Shown here: piece by piece, positions 5,501 through 51,660 of the stretch | How positions within the stretch are numbered: position 1 is the stretch's first letter | Layout: the number at the start of each line of letters is the position of its first letter | Origin: a virus | Reading direction: 5' to 3' (one strand) | Virus record (IMG/VR): IMGVR_UViG_3300005253_000361 | Span: 53,124-117,123 of that record | Length of the DNA stretch: 64,000 nt | Translations under genes and position numbers: made by a program | The notes under the pieces: model-generated | What the model was told of the DNA's origin: nothing | What the model saw: the letters and a program-made list of their open reading frames with translations, nothing else | The model's database searches: none

Positions 5501-7704
5501 TCCTGGAGCATCTGCTCCCGGAGCTTGACCCGCGCGGCGGCAGCGGCGCGGATCACCTCATTCTCCGACTCGAGAGCCTTAAGCTCAGCCTTGTGCATCA
5601 CATCCAGCAGGACGTACCCATTGGCCCAGACATCGATATTGTCTGCCGCATCGAGGACCGTCTGGGACCAGCCCCAAGTGGTGTCGTCAACTGCCTTGAT
5701 CCCGCCGGCGAGATGCGACAGACCCAACACCATGTCAGCTGCCGCGCCCATCCCCAGCAGGCGCATCTGCATGGAGGCGGCGAACAACTTGAGCGACATG
5801 TTGTGGAGTGCGTCCTCGACAACCTGGAACGCGGGGGCGACCAAGTCGCGCATAATCGTCGCGACCGTGCGCGCGATGTCGATCGTCATGGTCTCGGCGA
5901 ACCACGCAATACTCTCGCCCATCTTCCCGAGGCCCCAAAAGACCATGTCGACGAAGCCATTCCACTCAGGCTCGAAATCCTCCGAGATCGCCCGACCGGC
6001 CGTCTGGGCCATCCAGGTGAAAGCGTGACCAAGGTCGCGGAGCCCCTGCTGCATGATGAACGACTGGTTGTAGGCGTCGCGAAAGGCCCAGATGACCCCG
6101 ATCAAGGTGAAGCCCTTGACGATGGCCCAGAAGGCTCGGAACGCCCACCCGACCTCCAAAACGGTGTTCTTAAACAGACCCAACCAGCTGAGCCCGATCA
6201 TCAGCGAGGGGATGAAGACGTCGAAGAAAGCGACGTAGCCGACCAACACCTGCAAGAGACCCGTCAGAACAGCCTTGACCTCACTGGCGGCAAACTTGAG
6301 CCTATCGAAGTTGACAATCATCCAGTCGATCTTCTCGCTCGCGAGATCGATCCACCGGACGAGCGTGTCCTTCATACTGAAGAACCACAGCAGAGACAGG
6401 TCGGTCACCTTGGAGAAGAAGAGCTTGTACCGGTTCGTCAGTGAGCCCAGAAGGGCCTCATAGGTCGCGACCGACAGATTCCCCTCGACCGAGTTCTTCC
6501 ACCGATCAGAAAACTGCTGGAGCGAATCGATCCCAACCGCCAGACTGGCTCGAAAAGACGTGATGAACTGAGCCACGACCGGGCCGGCGCGGCGCCCAAA
6601 GATAACGGCCGAATCGCCGGCGTCGAAGAACGAGAACGCGAGGGTCCGAAGGATGTCGGGGAGTGGACGCATCAGCGGGTCGAGGTCCCTCACTCGCAAC
6701 CCGAGCTCCAAGATGCGCTTGGCTGCTTCCGTGCTCGGATCCAGCAGGGCCTGGATCATGAACCGGAACGCCCGGCCCGAGATACCGCCCTGCTTGGTCA
6801 CGTCGACAAAACCCGCCACGACCGCCATCATGTCCGAGATCCCAACACCCGCGGCCGCTGCGGCCGGGGCGGAAAACTTCAGGGCATCCTTCAGGCGATC
6901 GATATTGAGCGTGGTGGTGGCGATAGAGAACACGAGACCGTCCGCGATATCGCCCAGGTCCTCGGACGAGAGCCCGAAGGCCTTCATAATCTGGGTCAAG
7001 ATATCGGTTGCGGTCGAGAGGTCTGTCTGGGCCGCAGCGGCGAACGCAGCCGAGGCGGCGATCGCGTCCTGGACTTCCGGCACCGTGAGCCCGACCGACA
7101 CAAGCTCGTACATTGCGGTCGCAAGCTGAGTGGCGGTGAAGACGGTCTCGCGGGCAAGCGTCCTGGCGGTTTCGGTGAGCTGCTCGAAGGCCGGCTGGAT
7201 CACATCCGTCACAGCGGCTGCGGCCACAACCGCCGTACGGAGCATCGCGTCCTCGAAGTCCTTGCCGGTCTGGATCGTGAACCGGATCCCCTCACGGATC
7301 CATCGGAGCGGGGCCAAGACAGCATTCTGAATCGTGGTGGCGAACGTGAACGTGAGCCTGCGGACGAAGACCCCGGAGAAGTTTTGAAGGTCGGACTTCA
7401 TGTGACCCCAGAGGGATCGATAGCTCGAGCCCATCTGCTTCCCGGACTTCTCGGAATTCGACATCGAGACCGCCATCTGACCCAGGCCGGTCTTGGCCGA
7501 CATCCCGATCTTGTCGTAGTTCTTGGAGGCCTGGGAGGCGAACTGGTTCAACGTCGCGAACGGGTTCGCGGCCTTCGTCATGGAGGCGCCCGAGGTGGCG
7601 GCAAACTGCTTGATGCGAGTGGCCGCGACAGCGAGGTCAGCCGCGAAGAGACGCAGATCGGCCCGGAGGGCGATCAGGTACTCTTCACGCGATACGACCG
7701 ACAC
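2545..7704 (-). CDS. Tail tape measure protein
   Basis: At 1719 residues this is the largest gene in the window. Residues about 165-400 match the TP901-type tape measure core: a long Ala/Thr-rich amphipathic stretch with GLTVPEVQDA, LSTATDILTQIMKAFG and FSAPAAAAAGVGISDM, followed by KQGGISGRAFRFMIQAL. Hydrophobic segments near residues 490-560 and a Gly/Ala-rich hydrophobic stretch near 1080-1145 suit DNA-ejection channel regions. At the usual ~1.5 Angstrom per residue the tail would be about 255 nm long. It follows the tail chaperone pair, the standard siphovirus order. Confidence 0.95.
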   Translation of the reverse strand: MSVVSREEYLIALRADLRLFAADLAVAATRIKQFAATSGASMTKAANPFATLNQFASQASKNYDKIGMSAKTGLGQMAVSMSNSEKSGKQMGSSYRSLWGHMKSDLQNFSGVFVRRLTFTFATTIQNAVLAPLRWIREGIRFTIQTGKDFEDAMLRTAVVAAAAVTDVIQPAFEQLTETARTLARETVFTATQLATAMYELVSVGLTVPEVQDAIAASAAFAAAAQTDLSTATDILTQIMKAFGLSSEDLGDIADGLVFSIATTTLNIDRLKDALKFSAPAAAAAGVGISDMMAVVAGFVDVTKQGGISGRAFRFMIQALLDPSTEAAKRILELGLRVRDLDPLMRPLPDILRTLAFSFFDAGDSAVIFGRRAGPVVAQFITSFRASLAVGIDSLQQFSDRWKNSVEGNLSVATYEALLGSLTNRYKLFFSKVTDLSLLWFFSMKDTLVRWIDLASEKIDWMIVNFDRLKFAASEVKAVLTGLLQVLVGYVAFFDVFIPSLMIGLSWLGLFKNTVLEVGWAFRAFWAIVKGFTLIGVIWAFRDAYNQSFIMQQGLRDLGHAFTWMAQTAGRAISEDFEPEWNGFVDMVFWGLGKMGESIAWFAETMTIDIARTVATIMRDLVAPAFQVVEDALHNMSLKLFAASMQMRLLGMGAAADMVLGLSHLAGGIKAVDDTTWGWSQTVLDAADNIDVWANGYVLLDVMHKAELKALESENEVIRAAAAARVKLREQMLQEISDRESYIEVQEAILQIYRKNIAEGLSEMKALQLVGDQLARVRKFHKLYGDYINDEFFGIMGRYLVESGTLAKETQAFVDALADVREELNKLGDGFVSTDLPFQIKQSLTDGLLVVQDFMVQDWAPALKRLYVGELLGTLVEGREELIAAALPIDVVNSLYGAEFQEIKRIYEEMGGDFGALQQKIRDEMAESTKKGKDLWTNFFDSITKGMGDAIAQMIFDGTSFGEFIERLFKGLAKKMIVDTFGGLLLSLRDKFFGPAEKQAEGFVGVVQGWFTKLLGSGGTVEQVSVEASVSWGDVVGQDGEMVQATEEGMGMVGKIFLGVGSAVAGYAATASAGWKGAIVAIGSAIATGFATGGPIGAAIAGVGAAIGSIIGFFTESAEEKFEKLAKTVVFFYANMGTLSLELGGKIAKSSESIGIFASRVLHMGAVMEEIGVTTENFSRYAGQLVQLFYDLDSGVISTSQATKILDDAFGLLVEQMKELGITGDASVIRFLKEVRERGLEIPSVLAFIGDELAGVAEGLEKLLAVHGPLFDLWLEKTEAIAKILADAREENRELTEEEAEQIHELQKEIEVLIASGGDLTAEYERLGIITLTVFNEMIANGSSVVEAMDAIAPSLDELVRRQQLLGIEGDAAFNKLIQFRSLVQTNRELVDGFGGLTQVMAGLNNIGAMNLETFELLTQQGSGMYEELTAAGFDHNQALGVMAGYLTEVRDTAAQYGYELSDATQELIDQAEEAGIITEAQRDMHDIMEDVVNVLKDIRDGFGFVSRNGQDAFRDISEAGQGAYDDLRTNYGNLWDEMEDGWGDMGRYVDDTFQGMDDAGREAARRLSGYFGAYEDDMIGNSVFPDVRKGAVKQFKLLRQYGQETAANLTGFFTDAGATMAASLNYSGLGDFSAGDVSQTAPAASMAASISPNQIAKAVAEALSGANLGGSDMTPVVRPTIQVFIGNREVQGVVAKIVGEGTLNGDISVHQDGVFPYN

Positions 7705-7720
7705 GCTGCATCACTGCTCC

Positions 7721-8269
7721 TTAGATTCGTGTTCCGGAAAATCCCTGGCTGAACAGGGCCCCGAACTTGGGCTTCATTTCCTCGTAAGACCCGCGCAGAA
7801 AATCCCGCTGGATCATGTAGCGGGTCCCGTCGATCACGTAGATCGCGTGGGGCGCCCGGGTGGTGTCGACCCCGACCTTCGCGACAACCGCATAGCCGCT
7901 CCGGATCTTCATCTCGCTGAAGATGGCATCGATCAGCTGCGACGAAACCGTGATGCCCCCACCACGACGCACGTCAAACTGAATGTGGACGTCGAACGGT
8001 CCGTGGGGCCGGGGAGAGCGGTCGGCCCCGGATTCGTCTGCCCTTGTGCGGTAGCCGTAGGGATGGCCCATGCGGGCGAGTTGCTCGAGAGTGTGCTCAT
8101 CGATATGACCAACGTGGGCCCGAATGGCGGCCTCGAGAGCATCGCTGCAGACCAGCAGACCGCCAGTCGCGCGCACCAGAGCCAAAGACCGAAAACGGAT
8201 CTGGATACGGTCCCACTGCGCGGTGTGCTGGAACGGCTGCAGAAAGAAACCATCCTTCCGCCTAGCCAC
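7721..8269 (-). CDS. Tail-associated protein of unknown function
   Basis: A 182-residue protein between the chaperone frameshift product and the tape measure. It starts at GTG 8269 and overlaps the end of the chaperone -1 frame by eight bases, which implies translational coupling. The C-terminal segment RYMIQRDFLRGSYEEMKPKF recalls HK97 gp10-like head-tail proteins, but I cannot confirm this. No enzyme motif is visible. Confidence 0.6.
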   Translation of the reverse strand: MARRKDGFFLQPFQHTAQWDRIQIRFRSLALVRATGGLLVCSDALEAAIRAHVGHIDEHTLEQLARMGHPYGYRTRADESGADRSPRPHGPFDVHIQFDVRRGGGITVSSQLIDAIFSEMKIRSGYAVVAKVGVDTTRAPHAIYVIDGTRYMIQRDFLRGSYEEMKPKFGALFSQGFSGTRI

Positions 8270-8977
8270 TCACAACAGATCCCGGATGCATCATCTCGAC
8301 CTTTCGTAGGGACTCATCCGAATCCACCACGAGAGCCGTATCGCCCGAACGAGAGCCAGTGGAACTCTTACCGCTCCACGCATCCGATTCCGCCTTCTTC
8401 CGATCGATGATGCGGTCCAGCAGGAGCCGGATCTCATCCATCGACAGGTCGAAGATCTCCGGTACGGTCCAGCCGTACTCGTGCGCCAGAGTGTCGACGA
8501 TCCGACTTACGGGGTGCTCATCCGGCCTGACACTTTGCCCATCAGCGTGAGAAGATCGGCGCCTTCGGCATAGAATAAAGGGATCAGGAGGTCCGCCACA
8601 TCGGCAGTCTCGAGGTCCGCCAGATCTTTATCCGTCAGCGACGGATAGGCGAGCCCCAGCAACCGATCCACATATCCCGGGACGATCATCAGAATGTCCT
8701 GCATGATGGGCAGGAAATCCGTGGGCTGGAGTTTCATGAAGTCCAGCTTCTTGAACTCCGGAACATCCCGCACCAACTCACCGAAGGTCTGCAGGATTTT
8801 GGCCTGGAGTTGCCACTTCAACTTCGGAAACGGAATCTTCTTCCCGTTCGAGGCGAGCTCGATCTCATCGGGTGGGACGAAAACGTCCAGTTCGGGTTCG
8901 ACCGGTACTTCTTCCTCGACCGCTACTGCGTCGGGAGCCTCGGTGGGCTCCTCCTTCGTGGGCGTTGCCTTGGGCAC
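8262..8977 (-). CDS. Tail assembly chaperone, -1 frameshift form (GT-like)
   Basis: The -1 frame stays open past the stop of the short form and encodes a coherent T-like extension (RIVDTLAHEYGWTVPEIFDL, LLLDRIIDRKK) ending at 8262. No start codon or ribosome site of its own is visible, which is the usual layout for G/GT chaperones. Two slip sites are possible: the canonical heptamer CCCTTTA at 8582-8576, and a non-canonical GGGCAAAG ending near 8533. The zero frame still looks coding between them, so I slightly favour the later site. The fused product would be about 238 residues. The exact junction is unproven. Confidence 0.75.
8507..8977 (-). CDS. Tail assembly chaperone, short form (G-like)
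   Basis: A 156-residue protein encoded just before the tape measure and just after the tail tube gene. The N-terminal 45 residues are Pro/Glu-rich; the rest is helical with conserved-looking segments such as PFPKLKWQLQAKILQTFGEL. The upstream GTG at 8986 falls inside the Shine-Dalgarno sequence (GGAGGTGA), so GTG 8977, five bases after it, is the better start. The gene ends at 8507 in the normal frame and continues in the -1 frame. By analogy with lambda gpG/gpGT it should coat and fold the tape measure during tail assembly. Confidence 0.85.
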   Translation of the reverse strand: MPKATPTKEEPTEAPDAVAVEEEVPVEPELDVFVPPDEIELASNGKKIPFPKLKWQLQAKILQTFGELVRDVPEFKKLDFMKLQPTDFLPIMQDILMIVPGYVDRLLGLAYPSLTDKDLADLETADVADLLIPLFYAEGADLLTLMGKVSGRMSTP

Positions 8978-8981
8978 CGCG

Positions 8982-8997
8982 ATCACCTCCAGGTGAT
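8982..8997 (-). promoter_or_regulatory. Hairpin occluding the chaperone ribosome site
   Basis: A perfect seven-base-pair inverted repeat, ATCACCT and AGGTGAT around two bases, contains the GGAGGTGA ribosome site of the chaperone gene. Folding would hide the site and could hold chaperone synthesis low. It abuts the T-run of the upstream terminator. Confidence 0.5.
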
Positions 8998-9024
8998 AAA
9001 AAAGTAGGACGCATCAGGTGCGTC
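8998..9024 (-). terminator. Rho-independent terminator after the tail tube gene
   Basis: On the minus strand GACGCA pairs with TGCGTC around a five-base loop (9008-9024), followed by CTAC and six Ts (9003-8998). It lies just past the tail tube stop and should separate tube transcripts from the chaperone and tape measure. Confidence 0.75.
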
Positions 9025-9034
9025 AACCAGGTCC

Positions 9035-9574
9035 TTATTGCTTCTGGATCTGGAAATACCGATTCTTGTCGGCCAGACTGCCACCAGCCCAGTCCGTGCT
9101 CGCCAGGACTGCGTCCCAACGATACGGGAACTTGTGCGAATCCTCGCCGAAACCGAGCGAGACCTCACCGTTGCCGACAGCCTCCCAGATGCGGACATCA
9201 ATCGTGCCGCCCGAGGGAGTCTGATGCTGGATCAGGAGAGCGATCTTTGCAGTGTTCGGGTCGCCTCCGAAGTCCAACTTGCCGGAAACGGAGGTAACTC
9301 CGCAGCCGAGCGCCTGAGAGATTGCATACAGGTCCCATTCGAGACCGCTGCAGGAATAACCGACATCCTGCGACTGATTGAACCTCTTGACCAGCGCACT
9401 GGGGTTGCCCTGACGCACATCGAGAACGGAAGTCCGGATCTCCAACTGAGAGCCGGACTCAACCGCGCCGAGATGAGTCGAGGGGGTGGTGCCTACCGGG
9501 CCGACATAGACCACACCGGGGCCGAACGACAAGTCGTTCTGGGTAATGGTGGGTACGTTGAGTGGTCCAGCCAA
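9035..9574 (-). CDS. Major tail (tube) protein
   Basis: A 179-residue beta-rich protein upstream of the chaperone, the position of the tail tube subunit in siphoviruses. It has the tube-like opening FGPGVVYVGP, a central DVGYSCSGLEW strand and a terminal FPYRWDAVLAS...DKNRYFQIQKQ segment. The frame extends to a GTG at 9586, but that codon is one base after the ribosome site; TTG at 9574 follows AGGAGGTG by nine bases and is preferred. A terminator follows directly, as expected for a highly expressed subunit. A GGTGAGAGTT-type motif lies 74 nt upstream. Confidence 0.8.
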   Translation of the reverse strand: MAGPLNVPTITQNDLSFGPGVVYVGPVGTTPSTHLGAVESGSQLEIRTSVLDVRQGNPSALVKRFNQSQDVGYSCSGLEWDLYAISQALGCGVTSVSGKLDFGGDPNTAKIALLIQHQTPSGGTIDVRIWEAVGNGEVSLGFGEDSHKFPYRWDAVLASTDWAGGSLADKNRYFQIQKQ

Positions 9575-9647
9575 GTGACGCCACACCTCCTATGGTGCTT
9601 GGGGGTTAAACTACCGAGCCAGTGTAACGATGAAGAATTACCCGGGG

Positions 9648-9665
9648 CAATGCAACTCTCACCGG
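9648..9665 (-). promoter_or_regulatory. GGTGAGAGTT motif upstream of tail tube gene (putative late promoter/activator site)
   Basis: The minus strand reads CCGGTGAGAGTTGCATTG. It is one of five copies in the window and lies 74 nt before the chosen tube start. Confidence 0.45.
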
Positions 9666-9696
9666 GACGTGGATAGCCGTGTAACGGCTCGACACC

Positions 9697-9944: not shown

Positions 9945-10376
9945 TCAGTCTTGGACAGGCTCCGTGTACTGCACGCTCCATAGAGCCGTCACGGTGTAGT
10001 CCTTCATGGCTTGATCGTAATTCCAGGTGGGGCCGCGCTTCTCGGTGGCGACACCGTAGACGCCGCCCCGGTCGAGCCGCACTCCGTCGATGACGTTGCG
10101 GAACAACCGGTAGCACCACGAGGCCTCCTCGTAATCCTCCTGGCTGAAGCTCCAGACCTGCATACCGGTATTCCGGATACCCAGCTTGGAGTCGCCGCCA
10201 GCACCATAGACCCGGAAACACATCGCCGGCAGCTCCGCATCCCGAAGCTCCGCCGGTTCCGCGACGGTGATCCGGCCCCGCAGCTTTTCCCAGACAGCCG
10301 TGTCGGCTTGAAGCAGGCGCATGATAGCCACGGCCAGCAGCACCTCAGGATCCAGCGGGTTCGTCATGGTGCCCAT
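9945..10376 (-). CDS. Head-tail/tail completion protein
   Basis: A 143-residue protein. The helical N-terminus (LDPEVLLAVAIMRLLQADTAVWEKLRGRI) followed by a beta-rich half (FRVYG, MQVWSFS, VYGVATEKRGPTWNYD, YTVTALWSVQYTEP) is the pattern of tail terminator and DUF3168-like proteins that cap the tube at the head end. Its start overlaps the stop of the large glycosyltransferase gene (TGATG), so the two are translationally coupled. Confidence 0.55.
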   Translation of the reverse strand: MGTMTNPLDPEVLLAVAIMRLLQADTAVWEKLRGRITVAEPAELRDAELPAMCFRVYGAGGDSKLGIRNTGMQVWSFSQEDYEEASWCYRLFRNVIDGVRLDRGGVYGVATEKRGPTWNYDQAMKDYTVTALWSVQYTEPVQD

Positions 10377-12799
10377 CAGGCCTCACACTCCTCAGTCGGT
10401 GGGGTGCCGAACAGAAGCGGCACCAGGGGGGCAAACTCTTCCTCCTCCAGGACCTCGCGAACGTGGTCGGGACAAAAGGTGTCGATCGGTGTACATGCGG
10501 CCGACATACCCCGTACGGAGGCCTCGAGATTCGGGATGTTGTTGTGGCCTTCCGGCAGCGACTGGAGGGCCTGCGCCAAGAACGCACGCCCCTCCTGGGC
10601 CTTCAAAACCCCGAGGGCCTCGAGTGCCATCGTGAACTCACTATCGAGCGCGATCGCCTTCTGCAGCATCCCCTCCGCGACCGCTCGATCGCCTGACTCG
10701 AGGAAGTGCATCGCGAGGTTGTAGTTGGTGGCGGCATCGAGCGGGCTATGAGCCAGCTGCCGAAGTCCGATCCGGAAATACATCTTGAGCTTCCGCTTCA
10801 ACTTCTCCGGGTCCGAGAGAAAACCTGCGTGATCAATCACGCACTCCGACCGCAAGATCTGAAGGTTGTGCTCCCGGAGCGAGTCCGTAACGGTCTCGTG
10901 GACCCACCGGTAGTACCGGATCCGTGGATCGTTCCGGAACAGGCGAATCGCATCCTGATTCCACACCCGCCCATTCGGAAGTCGGTTCCGCACGTAGAAC
11001 CCGTAGGCATAGGCGATCGGCCGCTCGATCTCCCGACGAATCATCCGGGTCTCCGACGAGGACTCGTCGATGTCGAGGTGCAAAATCCACTCATGCCGAG
11101 CCATCTTCACGGCAGCGTTCCGCGGAGCGGCAAAGTCGTCGTTCCACTCGCGCTCGATGACACGACAGCCCCACATCTCCGCGATCTCGATCGAGGCGTC
11201 CTCAGAGCCGGTATCACAGATCACGATCTCGTCGGCGAAGGCCCAGAACTGCGGGAAGAAGTTGTGCAGCCGGGCCTCCTCGTTCCGCATGATCGTCACG
11301 AGCGAGATACCGTTGTCCTCCTGCCACGGCATCAGCTGCATGCCGGTCTCGTCGATGATGTGGCTGTAGTCGTCGTTACCGATCAGCCTGGCGTTCTTCT
11401 CGTTGTCAGTACGCTGGTAGAACTCGTACTTCCGCTGACGTTCCTCTGCGGTCATGTTGCCGTAGTGCTTGATCCGCACGGACGTGAGGGCAATCGAACC
11501 CTCAGGGAATGCCGGCGCGTTCCCCACGTGAAACGCCTCGTTCGGGACCCGGAACCCCGACAGGCATCGATACATGCGGCAGCCGCCGCCCATCTGGCCC
11601 CAGACACCGTCCGCCCGCCAGTACTGATCAGAGTTCCAGAAGTGGTACCAATGGAAGCTGTACCCGGAGATCGCCGGGTGAGGAACCCGCATGAGCCTCT
11701 CCGCGTACGCACGGTCGAACTTATCCTCGAAGACCTCGTCGGCGTCGATGCTGATGGCCCAGTCACAGCCATCCTCACAGGCCCACCGGTAGAGGTCCTG
11801 CCGATCCTGCCCCTCGAGCTTCTTATGGGTCCGCCGCTCGTACCGGGCGAGCTTGGCCCCGCAGATCTCCTCGATCTCGTCAGTCGGCCACAGCTCGGCC
11901 GGCGACTGGTCGTCGAGAATGTAGAAGCGATCCACGAACGTGGCCGCGTTCCTCAGGCTGTCGAGGAACCACGGCACCTGGTACTCCCGGGTCAGCTTGA
12001 CCCGAAAGAGAGCCCCCAGGATCTGCTCCTCCTTCGGCTCCCACTTCTGGTACAGCCGCTTGAGGTTCCGCACACCCGTGAGCGAATCGGGAGCGATCCG
12101 GCGGAGCGTCACGCTACCGTAGTGGTAGATGAAGCACGGGGCGCAGATGACGGTGGACCAGCCGGCCCGCATCGCGCGCACGCAGAGATCATTATCCTCG
12201 GCCCCGCCGACGGGGAACCACTCCTCATCGAAGATGAACCCGTCCTGCTCGAGACGCTCATCGAAGAACTCGCGCGACATCATGAAACAGAATCCCGACA
12301 GAAAGGCGACCGCGTCCCACTTGAGTGCGTTCTTGGCCGCCCACAGCTTGGAATGTTCGGCGACATTGGTCGGGTTGAGCTGGGGCGAGTGGACCATCTG
12401 GAACCCGCCGCAGTAATTGGTCAGCGGCCCCACCATGCCGGCCTTGGGTCGGTTCGGATCCGTGGCGTGGTACATGTCCAGGCAGTCGATCAGGAGCGTG
12501 TCCCAGTCGGGCGTGAACAGGACATCGTCATTGGTGCAGACGATGTATTTGGCCTCCGGCGACACCGCGTCAAATCCGGTGTTCATCCCCTCGCCGAACC
12601 CGCGCAACTCCGCGGATCGCAAGACCTTGTCGGCCCCGTAGGCCTCGGCCAACGCAGCGGCTCGAGGGCAGTCGTCGTTCACGACCACGATGAGTTCGTA
12701 GTCGGTAGTGGTGTGTTCTTCGAGCGTCGCGAGCGCCTGCTGAAAAAACTCGCAGGATTCCCCGCCCACGGTGAGCATTACAATACTTAGATCCGGCAT
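10376..12799 (-). CDS. Three-domain family 2 glycosyltransferase with TPR-like C-terminus
   Basis: An 807-residue protein with three GT-A-like units in tandem. Unit 1 (about 1-260) has SIVMLTVG, a NDD motif at 90-92 and GGAEDNDLCVRA. Unit 2 (about 265-470) has FYILDDQSP and the metal site AISIDADEVF near 349-357. Unit 3 (about 497-650) opens with SLVTIMRNEEARL and has HLDIDES near 574-580. Residues about 675-745 look like TPR repeats (NYNLAMHFLESGDRAVAEGMLQKAI). It sits inside the virion operon, coupled to a tail completion gene, so a capsid or tail protein is the likely acceptor. A TGAGGG element precedes the start. The acceptor and sugar are unknown. Confidence 0.85.
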   Translation of the reverse strand: MPDLSIVMLTVGGESCEFFQQALATLEEHTTTDYELIVVVNDDCPRAAALAEAYGADKVLRSAELRGFGEGMNTGFDAVSPEAKYIVCTNDDVLFTPDWDTLLIDCLDMYHATDPNRPKAGMVGPLTNYCGGFQMVHSPQLNPTNVAEHSKLWAAKNALKWDAVAFLSGFCFMMSREFFDERLEQDGFIFDEEWFPVGGAEDNDLCVRAMRAGWSTVICAPCFIYHYGSVTLRRIAPDSLTGVRNLKRLYQKWEPKEEQILGALFRVKLTREYQVPWFLDSLRNAATFVDRFYILDDQSPAELWPTDEIEEICGAKLARYERRTHKKLEGQDRQDLYRWACEDGCDWAISIDADEVFEDKFDRAYAERLMRVPHPAISGYSFHWYHFWNSDQYWRADGVWGQMGGGCRMYRCLSGFRVPNEAFHVGNAPAFPEGSIALTSVRIKHYGNMTAEERQRKYEFYQRTDNEKNARLIGNDDYSHIIDETGMQLMPWQEDNGISLVTIMRNEEARLHNFFPQFWAFADEIVICDTGSEDASIEIAEMWGCRVIEREWNDDFAAPRNAAVKMARHEWILHLDIDESSSETRMIRREIERPIAYAYGFYVRNRLPNGRVWNQDAIRLFRNDPRIRYYRWVHETVTDSLREHNLQILRSECVIDHAGFLSDPEKLKRKLKMYFRIGLRQLAHSPLDAATNYNLAMHFLESGDRAVAEGMLQKAIALDSEFTMALEALGVLKAQEGRAFLAQALQSLPEGHNNIPNLEASVRGMSAACTPIDTFCPDHVREVLEEEEFAPLVPLLFGTPPTEECEA

Positions 12800-14484: not shown

Positions 14485-15468
14485 TTAGCTGATCTTTACT
14501 CCGTACAGGGCGCTGATCTTCAACGTGTTGAAGAGCACCAGCGCCTCGTCCATGAACATGTCGAACTCTTCGTACTGCGAGCTCTTGTTCGACAACGCCT
14601 GGGTCTGGAATTCGGACAGAACGCCCATCCAGAGGTTGTCGAAGTCCACGATGAACGCCATCGAAGTGGTCCCGGTACCCCCGACAGCCTGCGCCTGCGT
14701 GGGAGTCGCAGAGCCGCTGTAGAAGATGGTGTCCGGGATGTTCGTGGTGGGTAGAACGGGGATGCCGTTGTAGGTCATCACCTTGAACCCGGCCGCGATC
14801 TCCGTGTGGTCGATCCAGCGCTGCTGCGACTGCAGCTTGGCTGCGAGCAACCGGCGGAAAGCGCGAGACACCAGGATCAAGCTCGGGTTGCCACGGTTCC
14901 GATCAATGGCCTGATCCATCTTGGCCAACGTCAGAGTGGCACCGTTCATGACGCCGGTCGACTGTGCGACCTTCTGGGCGTCCGTGATGAGCTTGTTCAT
15001 GCCGCTGAACTGCTTCGCGTCCTGGGCAGCATCGCCCCAGATGGACCAGTGCTCCTCGTAGTCGCGCACGTCTTCGACGCGATAACGAATCTCGTCCATC
15101 AGGATGTCCCGGAACGAACGGCCAATGGCACGCGCCTTACGCGTGACCTTGCCGCGAGCCAGGATGGTCTTGTAGACGAAGGACACGCGGGCGTACGAGC
15201 TGACATCCTCGTCCGGCTCCTCGATGTCGTTCACGAACTGGGCGATCGTGGTACCGACGGAACGTCGGTCCAACAGCCAAGCAGAACTTGTGCCGGTCAG
15301 ACGCGGAACGCTCTGGCGCCACGGGTTCAGGTAGTCCATCAGCCCGGCGATTTCCTTCTGCACATCGGGCTGCTCCAGGACACCGGTGACCGCGGTTGCA
15401 GTGAGCGTGCGCTTGAGCCTTTCTACATCGGCACGCGACAACGCATGATTCAGTACTTCGTTGTTCAC
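14485..15468 (-). CDS. Major capsid protein (HK97 fold)
   Basis: A 327-residue protein preceded by protease and scaffold genes. It shows the HK97-type pattern: an N-terminal helix (LSRADVERLKRTLTATAVTGVLEQ), an E-loop region with aromatic strands (ARVSFVYKTILARGKVTRKARAIG), a spine helix (SFRDILMDEIRYRVEDVRDYEEHWSIWGD) and an A-domain end with a NIPDTIF..VDFDNLWMGVL segment. The start is GTG 15468 after GGAGGTG. That ribosome site lies in a small hairpin. A terminator follows the gene. Confidence 0.88.
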   Translation of the reverse strand: MNNEVLNHALSRADVERLKRTLTATAVTGVLEQPDVQKEIAGLMDYLNPWRQSVPRLTGTSSAWLLDRRSVGTTIAQFVNDIEEPDEDVSSYARVSFVYKTILARGKVTRKARAIGRSFRDILMDEIRYRVEDVRDYEEHWSIWGDAAQDAKQFSGMNKLITDAQKVAQSTGVMNGATLTLAKMDQAIDRNRGNPSLILVSRAFRRLLAAKLQSQQRWIDHTEIAAGFKVMTYNGIPVLPTTNIPDTIFYSGSATPTQAQAVGGTGTTSMAFIVDFDNLWMGVLSEFQTQALSNKSSQYEEFDMFMDEALVLFNTLKISALYGVKIS

Positions 15469-16141: not shown

Positions 16142-17095
16142 TCAGCCAGCCAGCTCCACCAGATAGGCCGGAATGCCCTGCCCGGAAATACCGTGGGTGG
16201 TTCGGTACTCCTGCAGCAGATGCGCGGCTACGCTGTGCTTGTCCTCATCGGGAAGGTCAGAGCCCTCCAGTTTCGACGCGGCGGTATCTAGCCCCGCCCG
16301 GACCGACACCAGGTGCCCGTCCACTACGTCGTGATGAGGAAATCCGTAGTCCCCGAAACGGGAACCGTCACCAGACACATGTGCGAAGGCCTGCCGATAG
16401 ACAGACCAGTCGACGTCTTGCTTGGTCGGGCCGCCCGCCAGCGCACGAACGCGCTGAATGGCACCGACCGAATCCCACTGGCGCTCCCGGCTCGGGGGCG
16501 TGTGGGCAAATTCGAGTTGAACGAAAGTAGCGATTTCCGAGTGCTCGACCGTGCCGAAAGAAACGCCGGCCGACCGCAGAGCGCGCTCGACCCAGCTGGT
16601 CAGCTCAGCCTCCGGAACCGCCGGCACAGAAACCAGCGATACCTCCAGCAGGCGGAGCGAATGAACGACGATCTTCGACTCGCCGTTCGGCTGCTCAACG
16701 TACTCGTAGTCCATCGTGCGCCACGAGACGGAGAACTTGTTCAGTACGCCTTCACGGATCTTCGTCCAGAGATCGTTCTCGACAGACGAGATGAACCCGG
16801 TGAACCGGATCCCCTTGATGGCGTCGTCGTAGTAGCACTCGGTGACACGACCGACTGCCCGGCCTATATCGTGGCCGTAGAGGATGGTGGCGTACGTGAG
16901 CAGGTCGTGAGCCGAAGCCCGGAGGGCCGCTTCGGTAATCTCGACGCCATTCATGTCGAGGCACGCCACGGTGGCGATACCCTCGATCCAACGTCGAGGC
17001 TCAGACTCGCCGGCGCGGACTCCTTCGGAAACATCGCGAATCATTACCGGCAAGGCCGGAATGTCCTGCTGCCTGCGAAAGTCGATATGCTCCAA
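16142..17095 (-). CDS. Prohead maturation protease (HK97-type)
   Basis: A 317-residue protein. The N-terminal ~180 residues match family U35/HK97 prohead proteases: ILYGHD with the catalytic His at 75, KFSVSWR with the likely Ser nucleophile at 122, and LLEVSLVSVPAVPEAEL closing the fold. The C-terminal 130 residues are extra and unassigned. The frame opens at TTG 17095; an ATG just upstream is in another frame, and GGGGGTGA precedes the TTG by about nine bases. It should trim scaffold and capsid. Confidence 0.85.
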   Translation of the reverse strand: MEHIDFRRQQDIPALPVMIRDVSEGVRAGESEPRRWIEGIATVACLDMNGVEITEAALRASAHDLLTYATILYGHDIGRAVGRVTECYYDDAIKGIRFTGFISSVENDLWTKIREGVLNKFSVSWRTMDYEYVEQPNGESKIVVHSLRLLEVSLVSVPAVPEAELTSWVERALRSAGVSFGTVEHSEIATFVQLEFAHTPPSRERQWDSVGAIQRVRALAGGPTKQDVDWSVYRQAFAHVSGDGSRFGDYGFPHHDVVDGHLVSVRAGLDTAASKLEGSDLPDEDKHSVAAHLLQEYRTTHGISGQGIPAYLVELAG

Positions 17096-17435: not shown

Positions 17436-20363
17436 CTACGCTGCCCGGGCGCTCCTCTCGGCATCTCGCAGAGAGGCCCGAATCGGCGCCGCTGCGGCCT
17501 GCTTGAGCCACTGCAGCACGGCGAGCCTCGGGAACGGGTCGACCTCGTCCGCGTTCTCGTCGGCGAAATCGTCGAACGTCGGGATCACGAAGACCTTGTT
17601 GAAGGTCCGGCCGAACGCGCGAGAGAGCCCGTACGTCACGGTCGAGTACCCGAGCTCAGGGTCCACGTCCATCACGTGCCGCAGCGACTCGACCTCAGCG
17701 GTCAGGATCGCCCCGTCGACAACACTGACGACCTGGTCCTGACAGTCTCCGAGGATTGCCTTCGCTTGGTTCCAGTGCGACGGCTCAAGTTCCTCGAGTC
17801 GCTGGTTCGCTTCATCGATGAAAACCCGTATCACAGTCTCGAGCCGCAGAGCCTCGCGAGTCAGCGCGGCCGTCTCCTTCGTGCCACCAAACCGGGCCAA
17901 CAGATCATCATCGCTCCCAGTGGAGTACTCGATCGGCTTCGCCGCACGGGTCGGTCGAGCCATCCCCATACCGTCCGGCCGAGAAGCGGCGGTGATGCGC
18001 TGGCCGGGAGAAAGACCGAAGAACGGAGTCGCGCGATAACCACGTGGCACCTGGCCAGAGGAAGTCATGCTGGCGCCCTCGCCCTCACCGGGGATGTCGG
18101 TGTCGACCGCGGTAGACTCATCCCCGATCTGAGCCGTGTGCACAAGCTCGAGGAACAGCCCGGGATGGATCTCGTGGAGGAGGTCAAACGTGAACTTCTC
18201 CGCCATCAGGTCCATCAGGGGCTTGAAGAGGTTGAAGACCCGCAGCTCCTTGTACGCCTCCGCGGTGTTGCCCTGAATGGCAATCCTTCCGTTCCGACGG
18301 GTCAAGAACAGTTGGTTCGGAGGAACCGAGAAACAGTAGACCTCGCCGTCATACTCGACACGGTCTACATTGGTGTTTGCCCGAACCGAAGCCTCAAAGC
18401 ACCCTTCGACAATACTCACCCGGTAAACTGGGTCATAACCGTTCCGCTGATGCACAACACTTATATGGGCACGGTACCCAAGACTAATAGCAAGAAGCTG
18501 AACCCCGTCAGCAAGCTGCTTCGACTTGGAGTAGTAGCAAGCTGCCTTCCGGTTCGGGCGAGGATCTCGACTGCCGTCCCCTGCAATAAGCGCATTGTAG
18601 AGAATCTCTAACTGGTCCCTGGACAGACCCCAAATAAACTCAGGTAGCCTCTTTTCTCCGGCCCCTTGGCCGCAGTGTTCGATGAGCCACGAGCACAATG
18701 CCTTGTCAGCCACCTGCCAGCGGCGTGTGTTGTCCGCGCTGGTTCGGCGGTCAAAAGCTACCGGCATCTGGTCCACCACATACTGCATACGCTCAACCAC
18801 TGGGGACGCTTCAGACTGACACAGATTGATCTTCCAAGTACCCTTCCCGTAGCGCTTGGCATGCCCCTCAGAGAGCCAATACCCCAAAAACTCCATAAAC
18901 AAATCCATGGGAATCCCGCGATCAGGGTAGTCGCCGTTAGGCCCCCCACCAACAGTGCAGCCCGGGAGAACGAAACCCTCCTTGCGGTCCCCCCTGTGTT
19001 CAACCGCACCGCGAAATGCCCACCGAGTATTCGCTATCTCCAACTCGTGGGCCCGATAGGTCTTGTAAGGATGGCGACCGTCTCCCAACTTGCTGTTCGA
19101 GAAGTCACGCGCCCACATCCGGTGGTCAGGCGTGACCATTACGTCCACCTGCAGGCTGTGGAAATGGACCATTTCGCCTCTGTAGGGAGCACGGTAAACG
19201 CCATCTGCAGAACATCGGTACTCAATCTGACGGGTCTCCGGGTTGAACGTAGCGACACAATCATCATCCCGAAGATCCGGAAGCGTCTTCCACCCACGCT
19301 GCGTCAACGTCTCTGTGTCGGCACTATAGCAACTTCTGTTAACATCTGCAGATTGTCCCATGTCCAGCGGAGTTACGCCGAAATTTCTAAAAATTATCTT
19401 CTCAATCCGGGGCACGATCAGCGCGATCTCCTGCTCGCGGTACGGCCGGCGGAACGGGACCCACTTCGGGGGTTCGCCGGGGCCGTAGGTCGCGTACATC
19501 TTCGTGTTGTTCTTACCGCCCTTGTTCGCAGTGAACTCTTCCTTGGCCCGTAAGTACCCTTCTTCGCCGACATCCCCAAGCGCCAAGATGCCCTGTGGAA
19601 TCTCGTTATCATTGAAGAAGGCCGCGATATCCACGCTTGCCAGTATGAGAGCTGCGACCTCCTGTGTAATCGTTTCGATGATCGGGGTCCCGTAAGGACT
19701 GTTGGTGCGCGGGTACAGTACCGAGTAGGAAATCTGGTCCGGGGTAAACCTGACCTTCTTCTCACTCTTGTCGCTGAGCTTCACAACCTGAACGAACTCC
19801 TCGATAATTCCGTTGTAGTCCCACTTGACCGCGAACCTGGCGAAATCCCGCGGGATGAACTCGACCAGGTCGCCGCCCCGAGTAAATACCTTCTCGATCA
19901 CGGCACCGTCCATGACCAGCAGATCGTTGAGGTACTGGGCCCGGACTCCCCGGAAGGAATGACCCGGCGCCGGACGGGTAAAGAGATCGACGGCGCGATT
20001 GAAGTCGCGCTTCGGCACGCCGGGCTCCGCGATGATGCGCCATGGGCAGGTCGAGAGAGCGCGAACAATGAAATCGACGCATGGCCGAACCGCGGCTGAC
20101 TTCATATAGGTCTCACGCAGATCCTTTCGCGAAAGCCTATGGTCCCACCCGGTCGTGCTGTCGGGCATGAAGACCGAACCAAACCCGCCCCCTACGTGGT
20201 CATCACGCCAGCCACGGCTGGTGACCCCAGCTGGGGTCACCGGCACCAACTGTGGATTCGCGGCCCGGGTGACCCGCGCCTGCCCACTGTCAACGAGCCG
20301 GCGGGCCTCCTCGAGACTGACGGTTTCTCCTGCTCCCCTGATCGGTACCGACAACGCCTTCAC
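17436..20363 (-). CDS. Portal protein interrupted by an intein
   Basis: A 975-residue precursor; removal of residues 345-699 would leave a 620-residue portal. The N-extein has the portal signatures KSAAVRPCVDFIVRALSTCPW, VEFIPRDFARFAV and FNDNEIPQGILALG. The insertion splits the conserved NRS/TAEA segment, and the C-extein continues with YKELRVFNLFKPLMDLMAEKFTFDLL. It lies between TerL and the protease. The start is GTG 20363 or TTG 20354; spacing to AGGAGAGGTG favours the latter. The portal is the dodecameric DNA channel and nucleates head assembly. Confidence 0.92.
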   Translation of the reverse strand: MKALSVPIRGAGETVSLEEARRLVDSGQARVTRAANPQLVPVTPAGVTSRGWRDDHVGGGFGSVFMPDSTTGWDHRLSRKDLRETYMKSAAVRPCVDFIVRALSTCPWRIIAEPGVPKRDFNRAVDLFTRPAPGHSFRGVRAQYLNDLLVMDGAVIEKVFTRGGDLVEFIPRDFARFAVKWDYNGIIEEFVQVVKLSDKSEKKVRFTPDQISYSVLYPRTNSPYGTPIIETITQEVAALILASVDIAAFFNDNEIPQGILALGDVGEEGYLRAKEEFTANKGGKNNTKMYATYGPGEPPKWVPFRRPYREQEIALIVPRIEKIIFRNFGVTPLDMGQSADVNRSCYSADTETLTQRGWKTLPDLRDDDCVATFNPETRQIEYRCSADGVYRAPYRGEMVHFHSLQVDVMVTPDHRMWARDFSNSKLGDGRHPYKTYRAHELEIANTRWAFRGAVEHRGDRKEGFVLPGCTVGGGPNGDYPDRGIPMDLFMEFLGYWLSEGHAKRYGKGTWKINLCQSEASPVVERMQYVVDQMPVAFDRRTSADNTRRWQVADKALCSWLIEHCGQGAGEKRLPEFIWGLSRDQLEILYNALIAGDGSRDPRPNRKAACYYSKSKQLADGVQLLAISLGYRAHISVVHQRNGYDPVYRVSIVEGCFEASVRANTNVDRVEYDGEVYCFSVPPNQLFLTRRNGRIAIQGNTAEAYKELRVFNLFKPLMDLMAEKFTFDLLHEIHPGLFLELVHTAQIGDESTAVDTDIPGEGEGASMTSSGQVPRGYRATPFFGLSPGQRITAASRPDGMGMARPTRAAKPIEYSTGSDDDLLARFGGTKETAALTREALRLETVIRVFIDEANQRLEELEPSHWNQAKAILGDCQDQVVSVVDGAILTAEVESLRHVMDVDPELGYSTVTYGLSRAFGRTFNKVFVIPTFDDFADENADEVDPFPRLAVLQWLKQAAAAPIRASLRDAERSARAA
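18267..19331 (-). mobile_element. Intein with LAGLIDADG-type endonuclease domain
   Basis: It covers 355 codons in frame within the portal gene. It begins with Cys1 (CYSADTETLT, block A), has VTPDHRMW (block B, TxxH) near residue 67, and ends EYDGEVYCFSVPPNQLFLTRRNG (block F) then IAIQGN with the terminal Asn. The +1 residue is Thr. The penultimate residue is Gly where His is usual. Two endonuclease motifs are visible: MEFLGYWLSEGH near 147-157 and ILYNALIAGDGSRD near 243-256. It should splice itself out and could home into intein-less portal genes. Confidence 0.92.
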
Positions 20364-20423: not shown

Positions 20424-20440
20424 AAATCAAACTCTAACCG
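20424..20440 (-). promoter_or_regulatory. GGTTAGAGTTTGATTT motif upstream of portal gene
   Basis: A variant copy of the late motif (CGGTTAGAGTTTGATTT), 61 nt before the portal start and overlapping the TerL stop codon. Confidence 0.4.
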
Positions 20441-22038
20441 AAGTTCCAGATCCCAAACCCACCGGCCTGGCGCGCCCGAAACTTGATCGCCCGCTGGGCA
20501 ATCCAAAGAGCCATGACGGTGTCGGTCTTCTTGGACCCGGGGTACCAGTTGACCATCTCGTAGAGCCATACGCACCAGGGGCACACGCACCCGTCGGGAT
20601 GCCGAAACTTCATCGGGATGACCCAGTTGCCCCGCTGGAACTCGGCCGCCAGCAACGGGATGCCCTCGTTGAGGTCCATCTTCTGGCTACCGGTCCGGTG
20701 AGCCTCGAGCGGAAGGTTGACCCCATCCATGTCCTCCATCCAGTCGATCAACGCCTGCTGGTAGTAGTTGTTCTCCACCATGACGGCGTTCGGATGGTAG
20801 GTCTCGTAGACGTCAATGAGCTGTCGAGCTGTATTGGGAGAGGTCCAGTGGCCGCGCCGAATGTCGATCGGGATCCGGGTGCCCTTCGGGAGGCTCCCCG
20901 TCCCGTCGGCGACCGCCACAGTGAAGATGACGCTGGGGCAGTTGGTCTTCTTGAGCCCAATCCCGAGATCCACTCCGGTGTAACGGGTGTACTCGGCGAA
21001 CTCGGGGTCGTCGGGAGAGATGCCGTACACGATCGAGCCGTCGGAATTGTCGTCGCCGTAGAAGAACTCCCTACGGAACAGCCGGACCGACTCATCCATG
21101 GGACGGTTACGGTGCGAACGGTTGAAGACAAAGACACCGCGCTCCTGGCACTCCGCCTCGTACGCCTCTTTGGTCCAATCCTGACCGCCGGGAATCGGCA
21201 GATCAAACGAGGAGCCGTGCCAGGACTCGATAGAGTTGAAGTCGTCCGCGACACCGTAGACGCGGTGCTGCCACGCGGGGTTCTTGATGACCCGCATTGA
21301 GCAGTCATCCTCGTGCCAGAGCGTACAGATGTACCAGAAGCGAGCCTGCGGGCCGGACTTGACGTCTGCCCAGGTACCCTCAAACGCATTCGTGATGTTG
21401 TCGCGGCTGCGCTCCTCCACGACAGAGGTCTGGAGTGACGTGATGTCGTCGTACAGGATGATGTCAGCACGCCCGCCCTCCGGCGAGCTCGTCACGCCCC
21501 AGGCCTCGACGGTCGAGTCACGACTGTCGAGCGTACCCTTGGGGCGCAGGACATTGATCTGCTCGCTCGACCAGGCCTTATCGGGGTCAGGCTGCATATC
21601 GGGAAACACGGCCTGGCAGACGCCGGACGGGCACTCGACGATGTGGCGGCCAATCTCCTGCAGGTTCTTCTTCGCCCGCGTCTGACTGACCGACACCTCC
21701 TTGATGCGGATCGCCAGGCTGTTACCGATCTCCCACAGGCACCGCAGCACCGAGATCTGGGTTGACTTGCCACACCCACGTGGAGCCGCTATCAGGATGC
21801 GTGAGTGCTCGCTCAGCAGGTCCTGCCACTCGATGTGCATCGGGTGCTGGGCCCGCATAAAATGGAGCGCGACGAAGACGTTCGGATCCTTGCGAGCAAG
21901 CACAATCAGCTCCTGCTGAAGCCCCTGCTGGACCAGCTCAACTTCCGCGTCCTCCAGAGCCCCGAGATTCGGGAGCTCAACCTGGGGCGCCCAGGGCGTG
22001 ATGATCCGTGGTTCCCCCTCCTGGCCCACCTCGCACAC
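20434..22038 (-). CDS. terL: Terminase large subunit
   Basis: A 534-residue packaging motor. Walker A is APRGCGKST at 85-93, Walker B IILYDD at 193-198, and the RNase H-like nuclease begins GVDLGIG near 355-361, with AVMVENNYY and KKTDTVMALW supplying further acidic residues. A CVCPWC cluster near the C-terminus may bind metal. The start is GTG 22038, eight bases after GGGGAGGAG; five bases separate it from TerS. It docks on the portal encoded next. Confidence 0.95.
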   Translation of the reverse strand: MCEVGQEGEPRIITPWAPQVELPNLGALEDAEVELVQQGLQQELIVLARKDPNVFVALHFMRAQHPMHIEWQDLLSEHSRILIAAPRGCGKSTQISVLRCLWEIGNSLAIRIKEVSVSQTRAKKNLQEIGRHIVECPSGVCQAVFPDMQPDPDKAWSSEQINVLRPKGTLDSRDSTVEAWGVTSSPEGGRADIILYDDITSLQTSVVEERSRDNITNAFEGTWADVKSGPQARFWYICTLWHEDDCSMRVIKNPAWQHRVYGVADDFNSIESWHGSSFDLPIPGGQDWTKEAYEAECQERGVFVFNRSHRNRPMDESVRLFRREFFYGDDNSDGSIVYGISPDDPEFAEYTRYTGVDLGIGLKKTNCPSVIFTVAVADGTGSLPKGTRIPIDIRRGHWTSPNTARQLIDVYETYHPNAVMVENNYYQQALIDWMEDMDGVNLPLEAHRTGSQKMDLNEGIPLLAAEFQRGNWVIPMKFRHPDGCVCPWCVWLYEMVNWYPGSKKTDTVMALWIAQRAIKFRARQAGGFGIWNFG

Positions 22039-51580: not shown

Positions 51581-51652
51581 TGGCCCGTAGCTCAGCGGTA
51601 GAGCGTCCGACTGATAATCGGAAGGTCGGTGGCTCAAATCCACCCGGGCCAA
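51581..51652 (+). tRNA. tRNA-Ile (GAT anticodon)
   Basis: A full cloverleaf of 72 bases: acceptor TGGCCCG/CGGGCCA (7 pairs, U1-A72), D-arm GCTC/GAGC, anticodon stem TCCGA/TCGGA with loop CTGATAA, T-arm GGTGG/CCACC with loop CTCAAAT, discriminator A. CCA is not encoded. It may support Ile codon reading or repair a host-cleaved tRNA. Confidence 0.93.
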
Positions 51653-51660
51653 CTGCAGGG

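Follow-up and report, generated by a model that had tools for sequence, protein, structure and literature searches.

A class 1 LAGLIDADG intein with a Gly-Asn end in a phage portal gene, and a recurrent intein insertion site in phage portals

Results

The portal locus and its insert

The window, i.e., the whole 64-kb stretch of DNA that was analysed, forms the end of a 117,123-base virus record. It contains a head module in which the portal gene lies between the terminase genes and the head protease and major head genes. The portal is the ring that provides the DNA's way into the virus head. The main features are as follows, with a slash in protein motifs marking an insertion point here and below.

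20434-22038, minus strand: terminase large subunit, head module
17436..20363, minus strand: portal gene, intein-interrupted (Pfam Phage_portal; PHROG 12 and 2662)
19332..20363, minus strand: N-extein of the portal, residues 1-344, C-terminal ...DMGQSADVNRS (alignment to intein-less portals)
18267..19331, minus strand: class 1 LAGLIDADG intein, 355 aa, Cys1 to Gly354-Asn355 (empty site in L007; family alignment; model pLDDT 93.6 and PDB intein matches)
17439..18266, minus strand: C-extein of the portal, N-terminal Thr+1-Ala-Glu-Ala (alignment to intein-less portals)
16142-17095, minus strand: head maturation protease, head module
14485-15468, minus strand: major head protein, head module

The portal precursor has 975 aa, of which about 620 are predicted to remain after splicing. 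The extein matches Phage_portal in Pfam (1.2e-13) and portal families 12 and 2662 in PHROGs, and a scan of bacterial and archaeal genomes with the window portal gave no match. An 807-aa protein (10376-12799, minus strand), which contains two regions of glycosyltransferase family 2, is encoded between the head genes and the gene for the tape measure. A tRNA-Ile (anticodon GAT; 51581-51653, plus strand) is the sole tRNA or Rfam match within the window.

The insert comprises residues 345-699 of the precursor, which is exactly 18267-19331. Its N-terminus is CYSADTETLT, its C-terminus is RRNGRIAIQGN, and the +1 residue is the Thr of TAEA. A degenerate DNA pattern for DVNRSTAEA, GAYGTNAAYMGNWSNACNGCNGARGC, was scanned on viral contigs and matched 18 of them, all of which encode portal relatives of the window extein. 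The closest of the intein-less portals, that of contig L007, is 51% identical to the window extein over about 400 residues and has no insert; it reads FGVTPLDLGMSSDVNRSTAEAFKEI, with DVNRSTAEA uninterrupted. The in-frame insertion is missing from this portal and from 17 other relatives, and their flanks join as DVNRSTAEA. Since these loci are uninterrupted, the insert boundaries rest on a real empty site, not on motif reading alone. DVNRSTAEA is invariant in an alignment of nine empty portals, which holds by construction because these portals were found through that motif. The model of the L007 portal is poor (pLDDT 50) and hints that the insertion site may lie just ahead of a long helix. A scan with a QGN/TAEA pattern returned mostly unrelated genes, the portal inteins among its matches being only L027, L038, L069 and L048, the last of which is a second copy of the window phage.

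The preliminary description had placed a LAGLIDADG intein in the portal gene, and its coordinates prove exact. It had also held that the insertion splits an NRS/TAEA segment, and the L007 portal indeed reads DVNRS/TAEA straight through. No close portal keeping the inserted segment as a domain was found; L007 is without it. A splicing-dead remnant that the portal retains as a structural domain, or that splits the portal, could be envisaged because the intein is known solely from uncultivated virus contigs. We consider this highly improbable. The catalytic residues are all intact, the insert frame has no stops and no frameshifts, and the insert interrupts a motif that intein-less portals keep. 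Moreover, a second contig, L002, has the same intact copy, 100% identical to the window portal over residues 1-785. The insert is an ordinary mobile intein that is probably active.

Motifs, fold and class of the intein

Relatives were collected by scanning viral contigs with an alignment of the inteins of the window, L005 and ET08 gp3. This gave 113 confirmed relatives, the best 80 of which were kept, and 63 non-redundant ones remained after near-copies had been removed. Conservation in this set is given with the motifs of the insert.

19302..19331, minus strand: block A, CYSADTETLT, with the Cys1 nucleophile (Cys1 in 62/62 non-redundant relatives with a residue there)
19104..19136, minus strand: block B, VTPDHRMWARD, with Thr67 and His70 (both in 63/63)
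18861..18896, minus strand: first LAGLIDADG motif, residues 146-157, MEFLGYWLSEGH, acidic Glu155 (position 155: Glu 54/63, Asp 8/63)
18570..18602, minus strand: second LAGLIDADG motif, residues 244-254, LYNALIAGDGS, acidic Asp252 (Pfam LAGLIDADG_3; Asp252 62/63)
18267..18344, minus strand: blocks F and G, residues 330-355, EVYCFSVPPNQLFLTRRNGRIAIQGN, with Cys333 (F:4), Arg345, Arg346, Gly354 and Asn355

The Cys start, blocks A, B and F and the two endonuclease motifs that the preliminary description had listed were all found by alignment and model. The second endonuclease motif is accompanied by a Pfam LAGLIDADG_3 match on the insert (8.3e-10). The first is supported by a 38-row alignment and by the fold match across the whole intein, and the model has a helix at residues 142-155. 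This AlphaFold model, built from a 38-row alignment, has a mean pLDDT of 93.6, and its best PDB matches are the TliVMA, PI-SceI, PI-PfuI and Pko inteins (PDB codes: 7qsu, 1vde, 1dq3, 2cw7). These share the Hint domain and LAGLIDADG endonuclease with the window intein but have 10-14% identity to it and come from cellular hosts.

The model and its PDB matches show the Hint fold, and TxxH (Thr67, His70) and a C-terminal Asn followed by Ser, Thr or Cys (Asn355, Thr+1) are present. The Cys or Ser that class 1 inteins have at position 1 is Cys1. Each of the two LAGLIDADG motifs has its acidic residue (Glu155, Asp252), and I-DmoI and PI-SceI-like folds are matched. The intein has neither the block F His, where Gln340 stands, nor the penultimate His that is usual, though not obligatory, in class 1, its penultimate residue being Gly354. 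This does not exclude class 1, since functional class 1 phage inteins with Gly at this position have been documented (PMC5050341). The insert is thus a class 1 LAGLIDADG intein.

The fixed Cys at F:4, found in 63/63 relatives, prompted us to consider class 3 chemistry, in which the block F Cys would act as first nucleophile. Class 3 inteins have no nucleophile at position 1 and carry Trp at B:12 and Thr at G:5 (PMC5050341). Here Cys333 is the one class 3 feature found; Cys1 is present, Met72 stands at B:12 and Gln353 at G:5. We rejected class 3 chemistry on these three residues and regard it as scarcely credible.

The Gly-Asn end is the norm of a phage intein family

The scan used patterns from blocks A and B, so that it left the C-terminal end of the relatives unbiased. 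The penultimate residue is Gly in 60 and His in three of the 63 non-redundant relatives drawn from the best 80 of 113. Thr67, His70, Cys333 (F:4) and Asn355 are invariant in all 63, while Arg345 is found in 60 and Arg346 in 55. At the position aligned here with the block F His, 32 relatives have Gly and only nine have His; the +1 residue among related inteins is Ser, Thr or Cys. The window intein belongs to this phage-borne family, marked by Cys1, the F:4 Cys, a TRRNG block and the Gly-Asn end.

PHROG scans of the precursor frames identified the host gene as a portal in 20/63 relatives, a share that is possibly inflated since the relatives were gathered from a portal query. The other host genes encode terminase, RNA polymerase, nucleotidyltransferase, primase/helicase, ligase, thymidylate synthase and late sigma factor. 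The intein tree accommodates the portal label with 7 changes, versus 17.2 in shuffles, and the window intein falls in a nine-row group (7/9 portals, SH-aLRT 93). Relatives of the family were also met in cellular assemblies (L172-L220, genome_contigs), many of them from Methanoculleus and other Methanomicrobiales.

The nearest annotated relatives are the nucleotidyltransferase (gp3) inteins of cluster C1 mycobacteriophages, for example that of ET08, with about 32% identity over the full length. They resemble the window intein in Cys1, the F:4 Cys, the TRRNGKVAMHGN end with its penultimate Gly and the +1 Thr, but have another host gene and insertion sequence (GWD/TKTG). More distant are the RDF (metallophosphoesterase) inteins of cluster A1 mycobacteriophages, which share Cys1, the F:4 Cys and the Gly-Asn end with the window intein but differ in their +1 Ser and host gene. 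A 317-aa RDF-gene intein with the end TGN/S and the F:4 Cys is a full-length tblastn match of the window intein; identity is about 23%, and the kinship is drawn from the tblastn match (E 2e-7) together with the shared end residues. In 91 phage records this intein occurs at 95% identity or more.

An intein of this cluster A1 RDF group, Bethlehem gp51, has been tested (PMC5050341), and the length implied by its G316H numbering equals the 317 aa found here. With its native Gly, splicing of the Bethlehem RDF intein was reported to be complete at time zero, and in the G316H form splicing stood at about half only after more than 5 h (PMC5050341). The penultimate His is poorly kept among class 1 mycobacteriophage inteins, some of which have Gly, Lys or Ser (PMC5050341). 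Since the RDF relative with Gly splices fully, we would expect, by analogy with this distant relative, that Gly354 permits normal splicing in the window intein.

These comparisons reverse several points of the preliminary description. It had called the Gly-Asn end atypical and thought that Gly usually slows Asn cyclisation; Gly is the family norm (60/63), and the RDF relative is reported to be complete with Gly and slowed by a Gly-to-His change. Nor is Thr atypical at +1, where it belongs to the three standard nucleophiles (PMC4031507). Portals had been described as rare intein hosts, which does not hold for this family, with 20/63 relatives and 10 further confirmed portals found through the site pattern described below.

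The preliminary description had also proposed that slow splicing, as expected from the Gly-Asn end, could make head assembly depend on a condition, in effect as a switch. In canonical inteins the penultimate His does help Asn to cyclise, and there are systems in which splicing was modulated by noncanonical residues (PMC5050341). The F:4 Cys and Cys1 could in principle sense redox state. However, Gly is found in 60/63 relatives across unrelated host genes (portal, terminase, RNA polymerase, nucleotidyltransferase, ligase, sigma factor), the tested RDF relative is complete by time zero with Gly and slow with His, and the window locus gives no hint of regulation. No support for such a switch emerged in any of the evidence gathered, and we judge it very unlikely. 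We favor a class 1 intein that is mobile, splices itself out and carries a LAGLIDADG homing endonuclease; this is very probably what the window contains, and it calls for no regulated or slow splicing.

A shared insertion site in divergent portals

An intein in a phage portal gene as such is already known: portal (PORT) inteins of cluster C1 mycobacteriophages have been tabulated (PMC5050341). Shnickers gp90, a cluster C1 portal, has a 268-aa insert relative to the Breeniome portal. Like the window case it is an intein in a phage portal, but the intein is a different one (Lys-Asn end, +1 Cys), at the site RHW/CRLF in another portal type.

For seven other intein portals, the exteins were placed in one alignment with the window and six intein-less portals. 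The insertion column of the window recurs in six of these intein portals (L079, L080, L082, L083, L084, L027), and the intein of the seventh, L085, lies five residues upstream. A site pattern of NRA followed by the intein start (AAYMGNGCNTGYTAY...) matched 17 contigs, each with an intein at the site. Family search confirmed 16 of these 17 NRA/CY matches as portals, directly or via a near-copy; L221, L222, L223, L225, L227, L228, L229, L230, L231 and L232 are portals by PHROGs or Pfam, and L224 gave no portal family match in either. The distinct confirmed portals with an intein at NR(A/S)/TA therefore number 17, i.e., the window, six aligned and ten pattern-found.

In the 18 same-site cases (L224 included), the median identity is 37% for the inteins and 23% for the portals, where shuffled sequence gives 22%. 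Intein identity exceeds portal identity in 149/153 pairs, and the two are not correlated. Because intein identity at the site is far above portal identity, horizontal homing into a conserved portal motif is the simplest reading, and fast portal divergence may contribute to the low portal identity.

One of the pattern-found portals, L231 (IMGVR_UViG_3300020193_000026; 5541-9671, plus strand), has two inteins separated by a five-residue extein, TSNRA. The first spans 6543-7607 and the second 7623 to about 8654. They are 38% identical to each other, and the first is closest to the L085 intein (49%), at the same upstream site.

The codons ahead of the window intein differ in composition from the rest of the N-extein.

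19332..19406, minus strand: probable co-conversion tract, last 25 N-extein codons (GC3 0.36 versus 0.76 in the rest of the N-extein)

This GC3 is the lowest of 319 contiguous 25-codon windows (permutation p 5e-5, a value to be read with some caution since the 25-codon length was picked after ten sizes had been looked at), and 8 of the 25 codons come from a rare-codon list. The first 25 codons downstream of the intein are all GC-ending. No such dip was seen in nine empty-site portals, and it was missing in most other intein portals, where L027 alone was mildly low. Such a pattern is what short, asymmetric co-conversion with a less GC-rich donor would leave.

Other inteins met in the course of the analysis

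A radical SAM gene of the same virus, outside the window, has a second intein, which is of another type (G000:C1 at about 45 kb, minus strand; L001, L236). This intein interrupts the CxxxCxxC iron-sulphur motif, CNLSCSH/CLAKG...FLSVD/CYQN, so its +1 Cys would be a cluster ligand, and it apparently ends in Asp, not Asn. Portals of phrog_16240 (L089, L125; L087, L090, L094, L107), a different portal type, have further intein sites, RHISP/TEFYF, QWEGA/SGRIL and KLRE/SKFAQ. In GX15bay (MK557849; locus L006, 599-3454 and 3581-5563), an ORF annotated PhoH has a LAGLIDADG intein with a His-Asn end, and its neighbour, annotated 'portal protein', has an intein-like segment and no Pfam portal match. The latter was rejected as a same-gene case since it had no portal family match, and both annotations look doubtful.

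Discussion

From its residues, we suggest how the window intein would leave the portal. Cys1 would form a thioester with Ser344, which Thr+1 would attack; Asn355 would then cyclise without a penultimate His, and the portal would close at DVNRS-TAEA after excision of the intein. As for its spread, we suggest that during co-infection the endonuclease would cut portal genes without an intein at their conserved DVNRS/TAEA codons, and that repair would copy the intein in, plus some flanking DNA. Occupation of one site in divergent portals and the compositional tract beside this copy lend indirect support to such cutting.

In a broader proposal, to which we give about an even chance, tailed phages have a widespread homing hot spot at NR(A/S)/TA. 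The Gly-Asn/Cys-F:4 family would have entered many unrelated portal types there, with a second site five residues upstream, and Asn would be cyclised without either of the usual helper His residues, perhaps via the near-invariant pair Arg345-Arg346. A literature search that covered few subscription papers found no description of the NR(A/S)/TA portal site, and the hot spot is apparently new to the literature. What we think merits specialist attention is the recurrent portal site, together with the double-intein portal.

For the family, the Gly-Asn end is the normal end of a large group of phage inteins and not a sign of slow splicing, which corrects a misleading cue. In environmental phages, inteins have repeatedly targeted the portal, a packaging protein that is both essential and conserved. 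Its empty and occupied alleles offer a ready set for studying homing between unrelated phages as well as Asn cyclisation in the absence of the usual histidines.
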